Source of the DNA: Dehalococcoidia bacterium
GTDB lineage: Bacteria > Chloroflexota > Dehalococcoidia > Lucifugimonadales > Lucifugimonadaceae
Assembly (NCBI GenBank): GCA_002728715.1
Contig: PBVQ01000029.1
Span: 1-64,000 of the forward strand
Length of the DNA: 64,000 bases
Direction: 5' to 3'
Shown here: one piece after another, positions 47,319-61,255 of the stretch
Numbering within the stretch: position 1 is the stretch's first letter
How the letters are laid out: every line of letters begins with the position of its first letter
Position numbers and translations under genes: made by a program
The notes under the pieces: model-generated
Told to the model about the DNA's origin: nothing
The model's input: the letters and a program-made list of their open reading frames with translations, nothing else
Database searches by the model: none

Positions 47319-48278
47319 TTACCACCATGTCTTTCCTTCTATTTCTTTTTGATCGTACTTAAAATTTTCAGAATATATTCCTGTTGATAAATATTTCCAT
47401 CCACCATCACAAAAAATTGTTACAATCTTCCCAGATTTACCTTCTTTTGACATTTTTTCTGCTATTTTTCTAGCAGTAGCAAAAGTAGCCCCTGAAGATA
47501 CTCCAACAAAAATACCCATATCAACGAGTAGTTTTCTTGTCCAATAAAAAGCCTCTTCGCCTTCAATTAATACTCTACCATCAAGTTTTTCTAAATCAAT
47601 TATAGGCGGGATAAAACCATGTTCAATCGCTCTTAGACCTTGAACTTTTTCATCAGGATGAGGAGCAGTAGCAATAATTTGAATGTTTGAATTATATTCC
47701 TTAAGAAACTTACCGGCACCCATAAGAGTTCCACCTGTTCCTAAACCAGCAATAAATACATCTGTATCTGGTAAATCCTTAATTATCTCCGGGCCTGTAG
47801 TTTCATAATGAGCCTTTGGGTTGGCTTCATTACCATATTGATAAGGCATATAGTAATTTGGATTATCGTTACTTATTTGTTTTGCTAAATTTATGGACTC
47901 ATTCGTTCCTTTACCAGCGTCAGAAAATATAACCTCCGCTCCAAAAGCCTTTAGTATATCGATTCTTTCAGGTGGAACATCTGCTGGCATAACTACTTTT
48001 ATTTTATAGCCTCTAGTACTACCAAGCATCGCTAGACCAATCCCAGTATTTCCTGAAGTAGGTTCAAGAATAGTACTACCTTGAGAAATCTTTCCTTCTT
48101 TTTCAGCATTTAGAATAAGAGATTTTGCTACTCTGTCTTTAACTGATCCAGTGGGATTAGAAGATTCAAGTTTACCAAATATCTGAATTTTAGGATCAGG
48201 ACTTAACTGACTAACATCAATTAATGGAGTGTTACCTATCGAAGTAATTATGTTTGAACTAATTTTATTTAATGCCAT
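47319..48278 (-). CDS. cysK: Cysteine synthase
   Basis: NPTGSVKDRVAK PLP Lys, TSGNTGIGLAM, GTGGTLMGAGKF. Confidence 0.92.
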   Translation of the reverse strand: MALNKISSNIITSIGNTPLIDVSQLSPDPKIQIFGKLESSNPTGSVKDRVAKSLILNAEKEGKISQGSTILEPTSGNTGIGLAMLGSTRGYKIKVVMPADVPPERIDILKAFGAEVIFSDAGKGTNESINLAKQISNDNPNYYMPYQYGNEANPKAHYETTGPEIIKDLPDTDVFIAGLGTGGTLMGAGKFLKEYNSNIQIIATAPHPDEKVQGLRAIEHGFIPPIIDLEKLDGRVLIEGEEAFYWTRKLLVDMGIFVGVSSGATFATARKIAEKMSKEGKSGKIVTIFCDGGWKYLSTGIYSENFKYDQKEIEGKTWW

Positions 48279-48291
48279 TAAAATTCTTTTT

Positions 48292-49125
48292 CTAATTTAC
48301 AATCCCACAGAAAATCTCGTAATCGATTAATTCTTTGACATCAGGATTATCACCACACAATTTACAGTTTTTATCCTTCTTTATATTTATTTCCCTAAAC
48401 TCCATACTTAATGCATCAATCAAAATCATTCTACTAGATAGAACATTTCCAACACCCATAATAATTTTCACAGCCTCTATTGCTTGAATTGAACCTACTA
48501 ATCCAGGTAAAGCACCAATTACCCCCGCCTCGGCACAGTTGGGAACTTGACCTGGCGGTGGAGGGTCTGGAAACATACACCTGTAACAACTTTTTCCAGG
48601 AATATAAGTGGTTGCCTGACCATCAAAGACAAGAATTGCTCCATCTACAAGAGGTTTTTTAGCGAAAAAACTTGCATCATTAACTAAATATCTTGTGGCA
48701 AAATTATCAGCACCGTTTATAACAACGTCATAATCTGGGATGATTTTCATAGCATTTTCTGATGTTATCGGTTCTTCATGTAAAATTACATTAATATCTG
48801 GATTATGAGACATTAGGGTTTCTTTAGCTGAAACAACTTTAGGACGACCTACATCACTATCTGAATGCAAAATCTGCCTTTGAAGATTTGTTACATCTAC
48901 TACATCAAAGTCAACAATTCCGATAGTTCCTACTCCTGCTAGTGCAAGATATAATGCAACAGGTGATCCTAATCCACCAGCACCAATGATTAATACTTTA
49001 GAATTAAGTAGTTTTCTTTGTCCTATGCTTCCTACCCCATTCATGATTAAGTGTCTACTATATCTCTTTACTTGAGAAGGTGTTAAAGGGGGTAAATTTT
49101 CTAGATTGTCCATTACTTTTCCCAA
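48292..49125 (-). CDS. MoeB/ThiF-type adenylyltransferase (no rhodanese domain)
   Basis: GAGGLGSPVALYLALAGVGTIGIVDFDVVDVTNLQRQILH; CYRC and CKLC zinc sites. Confidence 0.9.
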   Translation of the reverse strand: MGKVMDNLENLPPLTPSQVKRYSRHLIMNGVGSIGQRKLLNSKVLIIGAGGLGSPVALYLALAGVGTIGIVDFDVVDVTNLQRQILHSDSDVGRPKVVSAKETLMSHNPDINVILHEEPITSENAMKIIPDYDVVINGADNFATRYLVNDASFFAKKPLVDGAILVFDGQATTYIPGKSCYRCMFPDPPPPGQVPNCAEAGVIGALPGLVGSIQAIEAVKIIMGVGNVLSSRMILIDALSMEFREINIKKDKNCKLCGDNPDVKELIDYEIFCGIVN

Positions 49126-49130
49126 AAAAA

Positions 49131-49562
49131 CTAGAACGTTAATTTTACTGATTTTTTATTATATTTCACTGATAATTCATATATTGAAACAGAACTTAGA
49201 TGTTTCAATAAAATTTGTTCTACTTCGGTCCATAAATCTTTTTGTGAACAATCATGAGACAAAATACAACTTTCAGGTAAATCTACACAATCAAAAGGTG
49301 CAAGGGAGTACTCAACAGCATCTATTACATCCTTAACGGAAACTGATTTAGGATCCTTAATAAGTTTATGACCACCATTTGGTCCTCTTTTTGATTCAAT
49401 AATTTTTGCTTTATGGAGGTCTGCACATATTCTAAGTAAAAAAGGAGCAGGAATATGTTGAGATGAGGAAATATCTTGAGTAGGAATAAACTCATCTTTA
49501 TTGGATTGTGCCAAATGAACTAGAGTTCTTACACCGTAATCAATTTTTATAGGAATAATCAT
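49131..49562 (-). CDS. Rrf2 family transcriptional regulator with three-Cys cluster motif
   Basis: DYGVRTLVHLAQ, HTH, SKRGPNGGHKL wing, CVDLPESCILSHDC (CX6CX5C). Confidence 0.88.
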   Translation of the reverse strand: MIIPIKIDYGVRTLVHLAQSNKDEFIPTQDISSSQHIPAPFLLRICADLHKAKIIESKRGPNGGHKLIKDPKSVSVKDVIDAVEYSLAPFDCVDLPESCILSHDCSQKDLWTEVEQILLKHLSSVSIYELSVKYNKKSVKLTF

Positions 49563-59316: not shown

Positions 59317-60321
59317 TTATTGCAATGCCCCTACTTCAGTAAGTAAAGCAACCGTTCCTTCTATGTCTTTCAATTCAGCAATATCTATATCAAACTTCTT
59401 AATATCTGCTAAAGGAGTAAGCATTCTATTAGGCTTAGCTCCATCATTGAGTGGATATTCATAAGTTTGAGAAGCAAAGAATTGCTGTCCAACTGGACTT
59501 AATAAGAATTTTAGAAACTTTTCAGCATTATCTTTATTGTCTGATTGTTCTAAAACTCCTGCACCTGCAACTAGGACTATTGAACCAGGATCATCAGCTG
59601 TTGTGTGGTAATTTCTAGCTCCAAACCCCTCACCATTTTCAGCTATAAATCGATGCAAGTAGTAGTGGTTTACAAAACCAACTTCTATTTCTCCTTTACC
59701 AGCAGCTTCTACTGTAGGAGTATTTTTTGCATAGAATTTTGGCTCATTTGCCATAATTTCTTCTAGCCAAGATTTAGTTTTTTCATCACCCCAAGTTAGC
59801 CTCATACCAGTTACCATTGCGTGAAAAGAACTATTTGTTGGAGGAAACCCAATTTTTCCTTTCCATTTTGGATCTGTGAAACCTTCAAGAGAAGCAGGTA
59901 AATCTGATGGTGAAACAGCATCTGTGTTATATACAACTACTCTTGCTCTACCAGATGTTCCTACCCATTTATTTTGAGGATCTCTAGCCCATTCAGGTAC
60001 TAAAGAAGTAACATCGTTAGACAAAGTTGTAAGCATAGCGTCTACTGAACCAAGTCCACCAGGATCTTGAGCAAAGAAAACATCTGCAGGAGTCTTGTCA
60101 CCTTCCTCTAATAAAGTGGAAGCCATAGCTGTTGTCTTACCATAATTAACCTCTACTTCAATTCCGCTCATATCAGAGAACTGATCAATAAGTGGTTGAA
60201 CAAGTGACTCACCTCTTCCAGAGTAGATAACTAGCGGTTTATCAGGAGCTTCTTCCGTAGTGCATGCAAATATCATTACACTTACCAAAGTTAGCATCAT
60301 AAGTAAAATATTTTTTTTCAA
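59317..60321 (-). CDS. Iron(III)-type ABC transporter substrate-binding lipoprotein (FutA/FbpA-like)
   Basis: Lipobox region MIFACTT; VIYSGRGESLVQPLIDQFSDMSGIEVEVNYG; TTG at 60321 preceded by AAGAGG. ORF track gives an upstream TTG at 60348. Confidence 0.85.
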   Translation of the reverse strand: MKKNILLMMLTLVSVMIFACTTEEAPDKPLVIYSGRGESLVQPLIDQFSDMSGIEVEVNYGKTTAMASTLLEEGDKTPADVFFAQDPGGLGSVDAMLTTLSNDVTSLVPEWARDPQNKWVGTSGRARVVVYNTDAVSPSDLPASLEGFTDPKWKGKIGFPPTNSSFHAMVTGMRLTWGDEKTKSWLEEIMANEPKFYAKNTPTVEAAGKGEIEVGFVNHYYLHRFIAENGEGFGARNYHTTADDPGSIVLVAGAGVLEQSDNKDNAEKFLKFLLSPVGQQFFASQTYEYPLNDGAKPNRMLTPLADIKKFDIDIAELKDIEGTVALLTEVGALQ

Positions 60322-60353
60322 TTTAAACCTCTTATATATTTTTTTCAAGAATA

Positions 60354-60422
60354 GTATACTAAATTAGTATACAATTATCTAAACTAACAAAATTTATATA
60401 TTGTGTCAATGTAATTGTATAC
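60354..60422. promoter_or_regulatory. Cluster of three GTATAC-centred palindromes (candidate operator)
   Basis: atagtatactaa, ttagtatacaat and attgtatactaa with GTATAC at 60354-60359, 60367-60372, 60417-60422. Confidence 0.55.
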
Positions 60423-60499
60423 TAAAATGATAAGGAATTATTTTTTAATACTAATTATATATATAATAAACAAATATTAAAATATTTTTTAACAGTTTT

Positions 60500-61255
60500 A
60501 TGAAAATTATTGCACATAGAGGCGCTTCGGCATTAAGACCTGAGAATACAATAGCAAGTTTTGACCTAGCTATTGAAAGTGGTTTCAAGTTGATCGAATT
60601 GGACGTTCACCTTACAAGTGATAATATCCCGGTAATTATGCATGATGAGACTGTAGATCGAACAACTAATGGTACAGGTAATATTAACTCACTTAGCCTT
60701 AAAGATATAAAAAAATTAAATGCTGGTTATAATTTTGATAGTCAAATTAAATATCTAGAGAATATACCTACTCTTTCAGAAATAATTAGTAGGTATAAAA
60801 ATTCTTCTCATATTTTTATTGAAATTAAATCAAGGGATAAAAAAATAATCCCAATAATTAAGGATTTATTAGTCAAGAATAAGTTATACAATGACAAAAT
60901 ATTCGAAACTTTGTATCTTGGAATACCAGGAGTATCAATTATTTCTTTTGATATAAATCAACTTATTCTATCTAAAAGTATTTCTCCACATATAAATCAT
61001 GGCTATCTTGTCAAAATTGCAAGCGAGAATGATATAGAAATCTGCAAAAAATATGGGTTTCTAGGAATTTTTCCCTATATTAATAATATAAGTAAAAAAT
61101 TTGTTGATCATGCTCGATCTAACAAACTATTTATTGGAGCATGGGGAGTAATGAGTGAGGATGAAGTCATTCTTGCTAAACAATTAGGTTTATCTGGAAT
61201 AACGGTTGATAATCCTAGCGAGGTAAATAATCAACTAAAGAGACTTGAAAAATAA
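60500..61255 (+). CDS. Glycerophosphodiester phosphodiesterase
   Basis: IAHRGASALRPENTIASFDLAIESGFKLIELDVHLTSDNIPVIMHDETVDRTTNG. Confidence 0.92.
   Translation: MKIIAHRGASALRPENTIASFDLAIESGFKLIELDVHLTSDNIPVIMHDETVDRTTNGTGNINSLSLKDIKKLNAGYNFDSQIKYLENIPTLSEIISRYKNSSHIFIEIKSRDKKIIPIIKDLLVKNKLYNDKIFETLYLGIPGVSIISFDINQLILSKSISPHINHGYLVKIASENDIEICKKYGFLGIFPYINNISKKFVDHARSNKLFIGAWGVMSEDEVILAKQLGLSGITVDNPSEVNNQLKRLEK

Follow-up and report, generated by a model that had tools for sequence, protein, structure and literature searches.

Predicted IscR-type operators at the promoter of a ferric-iron uptake gene in a SAR202-type Chloroflexota bacterium

Results

The futA promoter region

The DNA analyzed here is a 64-kb stretch, called the window below, from a marine SAR202-type Chloroflexota bacterium. 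Of the named relatives, the closest are Chloroflexi MAGs (isolates SAT13 and SAT182), while remoter matches are labeled SAR202 cluster bacterium. The reverse strand carries a gene for a ferric-ion-binding lipoprotein of the futA/fbpA type (59317-60321), which matches the Pfam families SBP_bac_6/8/1. The best PDB match of the product is 7w3w (E = 1.2e-77), and FbpA, HitA and FutA were also matched; the protein keeps the Tyr-Tyr motif of the solved ferric-binding proteins, as members of the FutA/FbpA group do. The TTG start at 60321, which an earlier note on this DNA had proposed, is plausible since the sequence AGAGG lies just upstream. A glycerophosphodiester phosphodiesterase gene (GDPD; 60500-61255, forward strand; Pfam GDPD, E = 1.1e-42) is transcribed divergently from futA.

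The letters of the spacer between the two genes bear out GTATAC at 60354, 60367 and 60417. The surrounding 12-mers read ATAGTATACTAA, TTAGTATACAAT and ATTGTATACTAA. Across the window GTATAC shows no enrichment (12 copies, with 8.5 expected); the close spacing seen here, however, is not due to chance. When the window was shuffled 400 times with a Markov model, three copies never fell within 69 bp and two copies were never spaced 13 bp apart; when the spacer, which is 86% AT, was shuffled 20000 times, three copies turned up twice.

The near-palindromic 12-mer, which had been put forward as the motif, did not hold up as the operator unit. Pattern searches of the genome at one mismatch gave 138 matches, fewer than the 222 obtained with a reversed-pattern control. 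The 1.35-Mb genome has six exact copies of WTWGTATACWAW; three are those of the futA/GDPD spacer and the others lie within reading frames. For these two reasons the 12-mer was rejected; the real conserved unit is a 25-bp dyad of two half-sites.

Read on the gene strand, the spacer contains in order O2 (ATTCCTTATCATTTTAGTATACAAT), TTGACA, 17 bp, TAGTTT, O1 (ATTGTATACTAATTTAGTATACTAT), AGAGG and the TTG start. It follows from this layout that the GTATAC pair with 13-bp spacing forms a single dyad, ATTGTATACT-N5-AGTATACTAT, which we call O1, and that the third GTATAC (60417) is one half of O2. O1 (60351-60375, reverse strand) is a 25-bp dyad covering about -1 to +24 of futA; it is placed over the likely transcription start, downstream of the -10 box. 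O2 (60414-60438, reverse strand) is a 25-mer, less symmetric than O1, just upstream of the -35 box. The putative -35 box TTGACA (60404-60409, reverse strand) was assigned from the sequence and an alignment of three congeners. The putative -10 box TAGTTT (60381-60386, reverse strand), 17 bp away, reads TAATTT in the congeners. The half-site consensus of the 25-bp operators is ATTGTNNACT, with an N5 spacer. O1 and O2 are predicted operators that flank a sigma-70-type futA promoter, TTGACA-17-TAGTTT; the GDPD gene is not necessarily under their control.

Conservation and genomic distribution of the 25-mer

A comparison of orthologous spacers found O1 kept in congeners and also in the spacers of a paralogous gene. 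In two congeners both half-sites, their spacing and their position are all retained, and the position of O2 in congener G003 reads ATTGTTGATTTTATTAGTAAACAAT. The paralog is a second futA copy (futA-b) in the genus of the window, g1. Its promoter carries two 25-mers (AAAGTATACTAAATTAGTAAACTTT and TTTGTGTACTTAAATAGTATAGAAT in G003), and the O1-type site is degenerate there. No futA-b was found in the window genome, which is 84% complete. The paralog has a ferrochelatase-like and an MFS gene as neighbors (L068, L069, L071).

The scan of whole genomes for sites near iron genes was run with the 25-mer. The pattern TTGTNNACTN5AGTNNACAA, with up to one mismatch, has six matches in four g1 genomes, which as members of one genus are not independent samples, and all six lie at the promoters of futA-a or futA-b. 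The view that an operator lies at this iron-uptake gene is thus supported, with sites that are conserved and, genome-wide in the genus, confined to futA promoters. The g1 futBC promoter has no convincing site; the best alignment there has 5 mismatches and overlaps a -10-like element.

The matches in the sister genus g6 include the futA promoter in G008 and G018. A separately located futBC operon of g6 has the 25-mer in G018; the site is conserved in G008 and G035, where it departs from the pattern at two positions. The left half-site in g6, with its TATACT, coincides with the likely -10 box, which counts against the operator reading, and GGTATACAT in g4 also resembles a -10 element. These overlaps, together with the AT content of the spacer, would fit palindromes that are by-products of an AT-rich promoter with a -10 box like TATACT and have no dedicated regulator. 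We regard this as very unlikely. The -10 box in g1 lies elsewhere, with O1 downstream of it; half-sites and 13-bp spacing are kept in orthologs and paralogs, the whole-genome matches are confined to futA and shuffles fail to reproduce the GTATAC cluster.

Boxes of the DtxR and Fur families

The earlier statement that the repeats do not look like a canonical Fur or DtxR box is supported; O1 differs from both in sequence and geometry. The DtxR/IdeR box measures 14 bp, with 2 bp between its halves, whereas O1 is a 25-mer. DtxR was rejected as the regulator in g1, since the four genomes of this genus (G000-G003, 81-95% complete) contain no protein of the family (PF01325, PF02742). DtxR-family genes occur in 37 of the 60 genomes, with none in the sampled members of g1, g5, g6 and g10 and with copies in most of the remaining relatives; the MAGs are incomplete and these absences are therefore provisional.

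In the relatives that have DtxR, the corresponding futA spacers contain TTMGTRNNYACKAA boxes. This 14-mer (TTCGTATATACGAA) is present in one to three copies near futA and rarely elsewhere in the 19-kb loci of DtxR-bearing genera (L022, L025, L029, L032, L033, L039, L044, L048, L051, L055, L058, L059, L064, L065, L077, L078 and L080); variants are TTAGTATATACTAA in L056 and TTAGTGCATACTAA in L076. In several genomes the DtxR gene is close to futA, which makes these 14-mers likely DtxR boxes, although G023 and G032 carry them with no DtxR detected. Autoregulation of DtxR via TTMGTRNNYACKAA was discarded, as matches near the dtxR gene were found only in L214, L232 and L241.

Fur/Zur boxes, which have the form TGAGAATNATTCTCA in the relatives, are like O1 dyads at metal-uptake promoters, but they have another sequence and another geometry. 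They occur at Fur-family/znu promoters in G007 and G026 (both g5), G044, G052 and G059; a 7-1-7 dyad of this type was not found at futA. Such boxes lie between Fur-family and metal-transporter genes in L196, L197, L204, L207 and L208.

The g1 repertoire includes one Fur-family protein (G000:C7), whose gene adjoins one for a ZnuA/MntC-like (Zn/Mn-type) binding protein. Fur is the other metal-responsive family present, and this protein could in principle regulate futA via an AT-rich 7-1-7 box inside ATACTAA-T-TTAGTAT. By NCBIfam it is nearer to Fur than to Zur models, albeit below all cut-offs; the Fur-family genes of g1 and g6 both adjoin a rhomboid-type membrane-protein gene, and both genera share the GTATAC operator. 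We nevertheless consider this explanation unlikely, given that the box at the relatives' Fur-family/znu promoters is unlike the futA operator, that g1 and g6 sites conserve their outer half-sites and vary at the five central positions, which would form the core of a 7-1-7 box, and that the neighboring gene is of the Zn/Mn type.

Similarity to IscR type-1 sites

O1 agrees with the IscR type-1 consensus ATASYYGACTRWWWYAGTCRRSTAT (PMC6599224) at 20 of 25 positions, and the paralog site at 21 of 25; the IscR sites A and B of P. aeruginosa reach 68% and 76% of the consensus (PMC6599224). The fraction of shuffles in this consensus comparison was 0.01 for G000 and 0.185 for G001. The type-1 sites of E. 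coli and P. aeruginosa are, like O1, 25-bp dyads with 10-bp half-sites, a 5-bp spacer, an ACT-N5-AGT core and AT ends. The P. aeruginosa sites overlap or flank the promoter (PMC6599224), as O1 and O2 do. They also differ. The TGACT core of type-1 sites is replaced by TATACT in g1, with GACT/AGTC becoming TACT/AGTA in both halves of O1, and the target is ferric-iron uptake here but isc/suf in the IscR systems. A bridging site at futA of G022, ATTGTGTACT-CTATG-GGTCAGGTAT, joins a g1-type half-site to a classical one. The exact pattern TTGACTN5AGTCAA was rejected as the g1 operator, with no match at futA; in g5 two of its 12 matches are at futA.

Relatives with DtxR have near-perfect type-1 sites at sufB promoters and at some rrf2 promoters. 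Examples from sufB are ATACCTGACTAAAACGGTCAGGAAT in G013, where DtxR was not detected and genus mates have it, and ATTGTTGACTAAATTAGTCTGGAAT in G005. Such sites probably show what the Rrf2 protein of the family binds. A matrix was constructed from 14 sufB/rrf2 promoter sites of relatives, picked by resemblance to the E. coli consensus and including no futA site, and was used to scan futA loci of ~19 kb. In 19 of the 30 loci of the family it gave its highest score of the whole locus at the futA promoter, as would be expected of type-1 operators. Column-permuted matrices, 300 in all, did so in a mean of 1.3 and a maximum of 6 of the 30 loci, and none of them reached 19; the same matrix gave 0 of 10 loci in other families of the order. 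Among genera without training sites the count was 11/17 (g1 5/6, g5 3/4, g2 1/1, g10 1/1, g6 1/3, g8 0/2). Genus g9, which has DtxR, is likewise without training sites and stands outside the 11/17; it gave 0/3, i.e., no IscR-type site at futA by the matrix. Over the 64-kb window O2 ranks third and O1 seventh, with stray matches above them.

The sufB promoters of the DtxR-less genera g1, g5, g6 and g10 score at most 2.3 bits, and those of three tested genomes from g3, g11 and g12 score 27-36 bits. A search of the g1 rrf2 and suf (sufB) promoters found no convincing site, so that the control of isc/suf and of its own gene that is typical of IscR was not recovered there.

The matrix result also bears on an unlinked regulator of the GntR/FadR, TetR or MarR type, unrelated to Fe-S sensing, that would bind the GTATAC dyads. 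FadR-type sites have the form TNGT-N-ACNA. The 12-mers fit the pattern TNGTNNACNA, and 25-bp dyads with 5-bp spacers would also suit TetR-type proteins. Yet the sites are found by a matrix trained on suf/rrf2, every g1 match to the 25-mer lies at a futA gene, never at that of a regulator, and the genes beside futA in g1 and the related genera examined include no conserved regulator gene. A regulator of this kind is therefore improbable.

A candidate Rrf2-family regulator

The proposed regulator is encoded in the same window, 11 kb from the futA operators, by the sole gene of the Rrf2 family found in this genome (49131-49562, reverse strand). The protein has 143 aa and a C-x6-C-x5-C motif; each g1 genome has exactly one Rrf2 gene, whose product has three Cys. 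The protein scores 107 bits with the Rrf2 superfamily model, over the cut-off, and falls below the cut-offs of the NCBIfam models for IscR (TIGR02010; 76.6 bits, cut-off 207.6) and RirA (NF008886; 49 bits, cut-off 193). In IscR a His, beside three Cys, ligates the 2Fe-2S cluster; this usual fourth ligand, His107 in E. coli IscR, is replaced by Lys. RirA of Rhizobiales, also an Rrf2 protein with three Cys, represses iron uptake while its cluster is present (PMC5863699, PMC6748827). It belongs to a different phylum, its DNA site is not that of O1/O2, and the match of the window protein to the RirA model is weak.

The Rrf2 gene is followed by moeB/thiF-like and cysteine synthase (cysK-like) genes (47319-49562); g1 and g5 share this gene order, which may connect Fe-S sensing with sulfur supply.

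Discussion

The 25-bp sites are conserved, are associated almost exclusively with iron-uptake promoters and match a matrix trained on suf/rrf2. The earlier note had assumed an operator for an unassigned metalloregulator. The operator stands; the regulator, judged by motif comparison, is likely an Fe-S-cluster protein of the Rrf2/IscR type and not a metal-binding repressor. We infer its identity, the repression and the cluster sensing from this comparison, and we think it likely, on balance, that the IscR/RirA-like protein encoded at 49131-49562 binds O1/O2 and represses futA by Fe-S sensing. With Fe-S clusters plentiful, the cluster-bearing dimer would occupy O1 at the transcription start and O2 upstream of the -35 box, RNA polymerase would be blocked and futA would be off. 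When iron is short, the cluster would be lost and futA derepressed.

Relatives that keep DtxR have type-1-kind sites at sufB, rrf2 and futA, while in the DtxR-less genera they were found at futA and not at sufB or rrf2. This distribution suggests a rewiring from Fe-S assembly to iron uptake, in which the Rrf2 regulon may have moved from suf/rrf2 to iron uptake in the DtxR-less, mostly small-genome genera. The suggested outcome would resemble RirA in Rhizobiales (PMC5863699, PMC6748827). For streamlined Chloroflexota of the SAR202 type in which DtxR was lost, we give an even chance to a broader reading, namely that an IscR-type Fe-S sensor abandoned the sites for Fe-S assembly and autoregulation and turned into a repressor dedicated to ferric-iron uptake, with the half-site changing from ATTCCTGACC to ATTGTATACT, in parallel to RirA and independently of it. 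In one genus this reading would also place a copper protein under the IscR-type repressor.

Iron is in short supply in the ocean, and the SAR202-type bacteria are a widespread group. To our knowledge they have hardly been studied for gene regulation, and a limited literature search turned up no report of IscR/Rrf2 operators or of iron regulation in SAR202. If the proposal is true, it provides a testable iron-response operator for uncultured Chloroflexota, whose iron-stress genes could then be listed from sequence alone. It would also offer a comparative case of a regulon passing between sensors as genomes shrink, for which species that combine DtxR boxes with IscR-type sites at futA can be set against those with IscR-type sites only.

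Some further 25-mers were observed at other genes. In G008 and G035, both of g6, the 25-mer precedes a gene for a cupredoxin-like lipoprotein (L248, L249 near 1501), perhaps a copper protein that the cell makes when short of iron, so as to spare it. A one-mismatch 25-mer, TTGTTGACTAGTTTAGTATAAAA, is located upstream of a multihaem cytochrome/alternative complex III-like operon in G034 (L243 near 1501), and a type-1-like 25-mer, ATTGTATATTGAACAGGTCAACAAT, upstream of the DUF454/YbaN-like gene that precedes futA in g6 (L074 near 9277).
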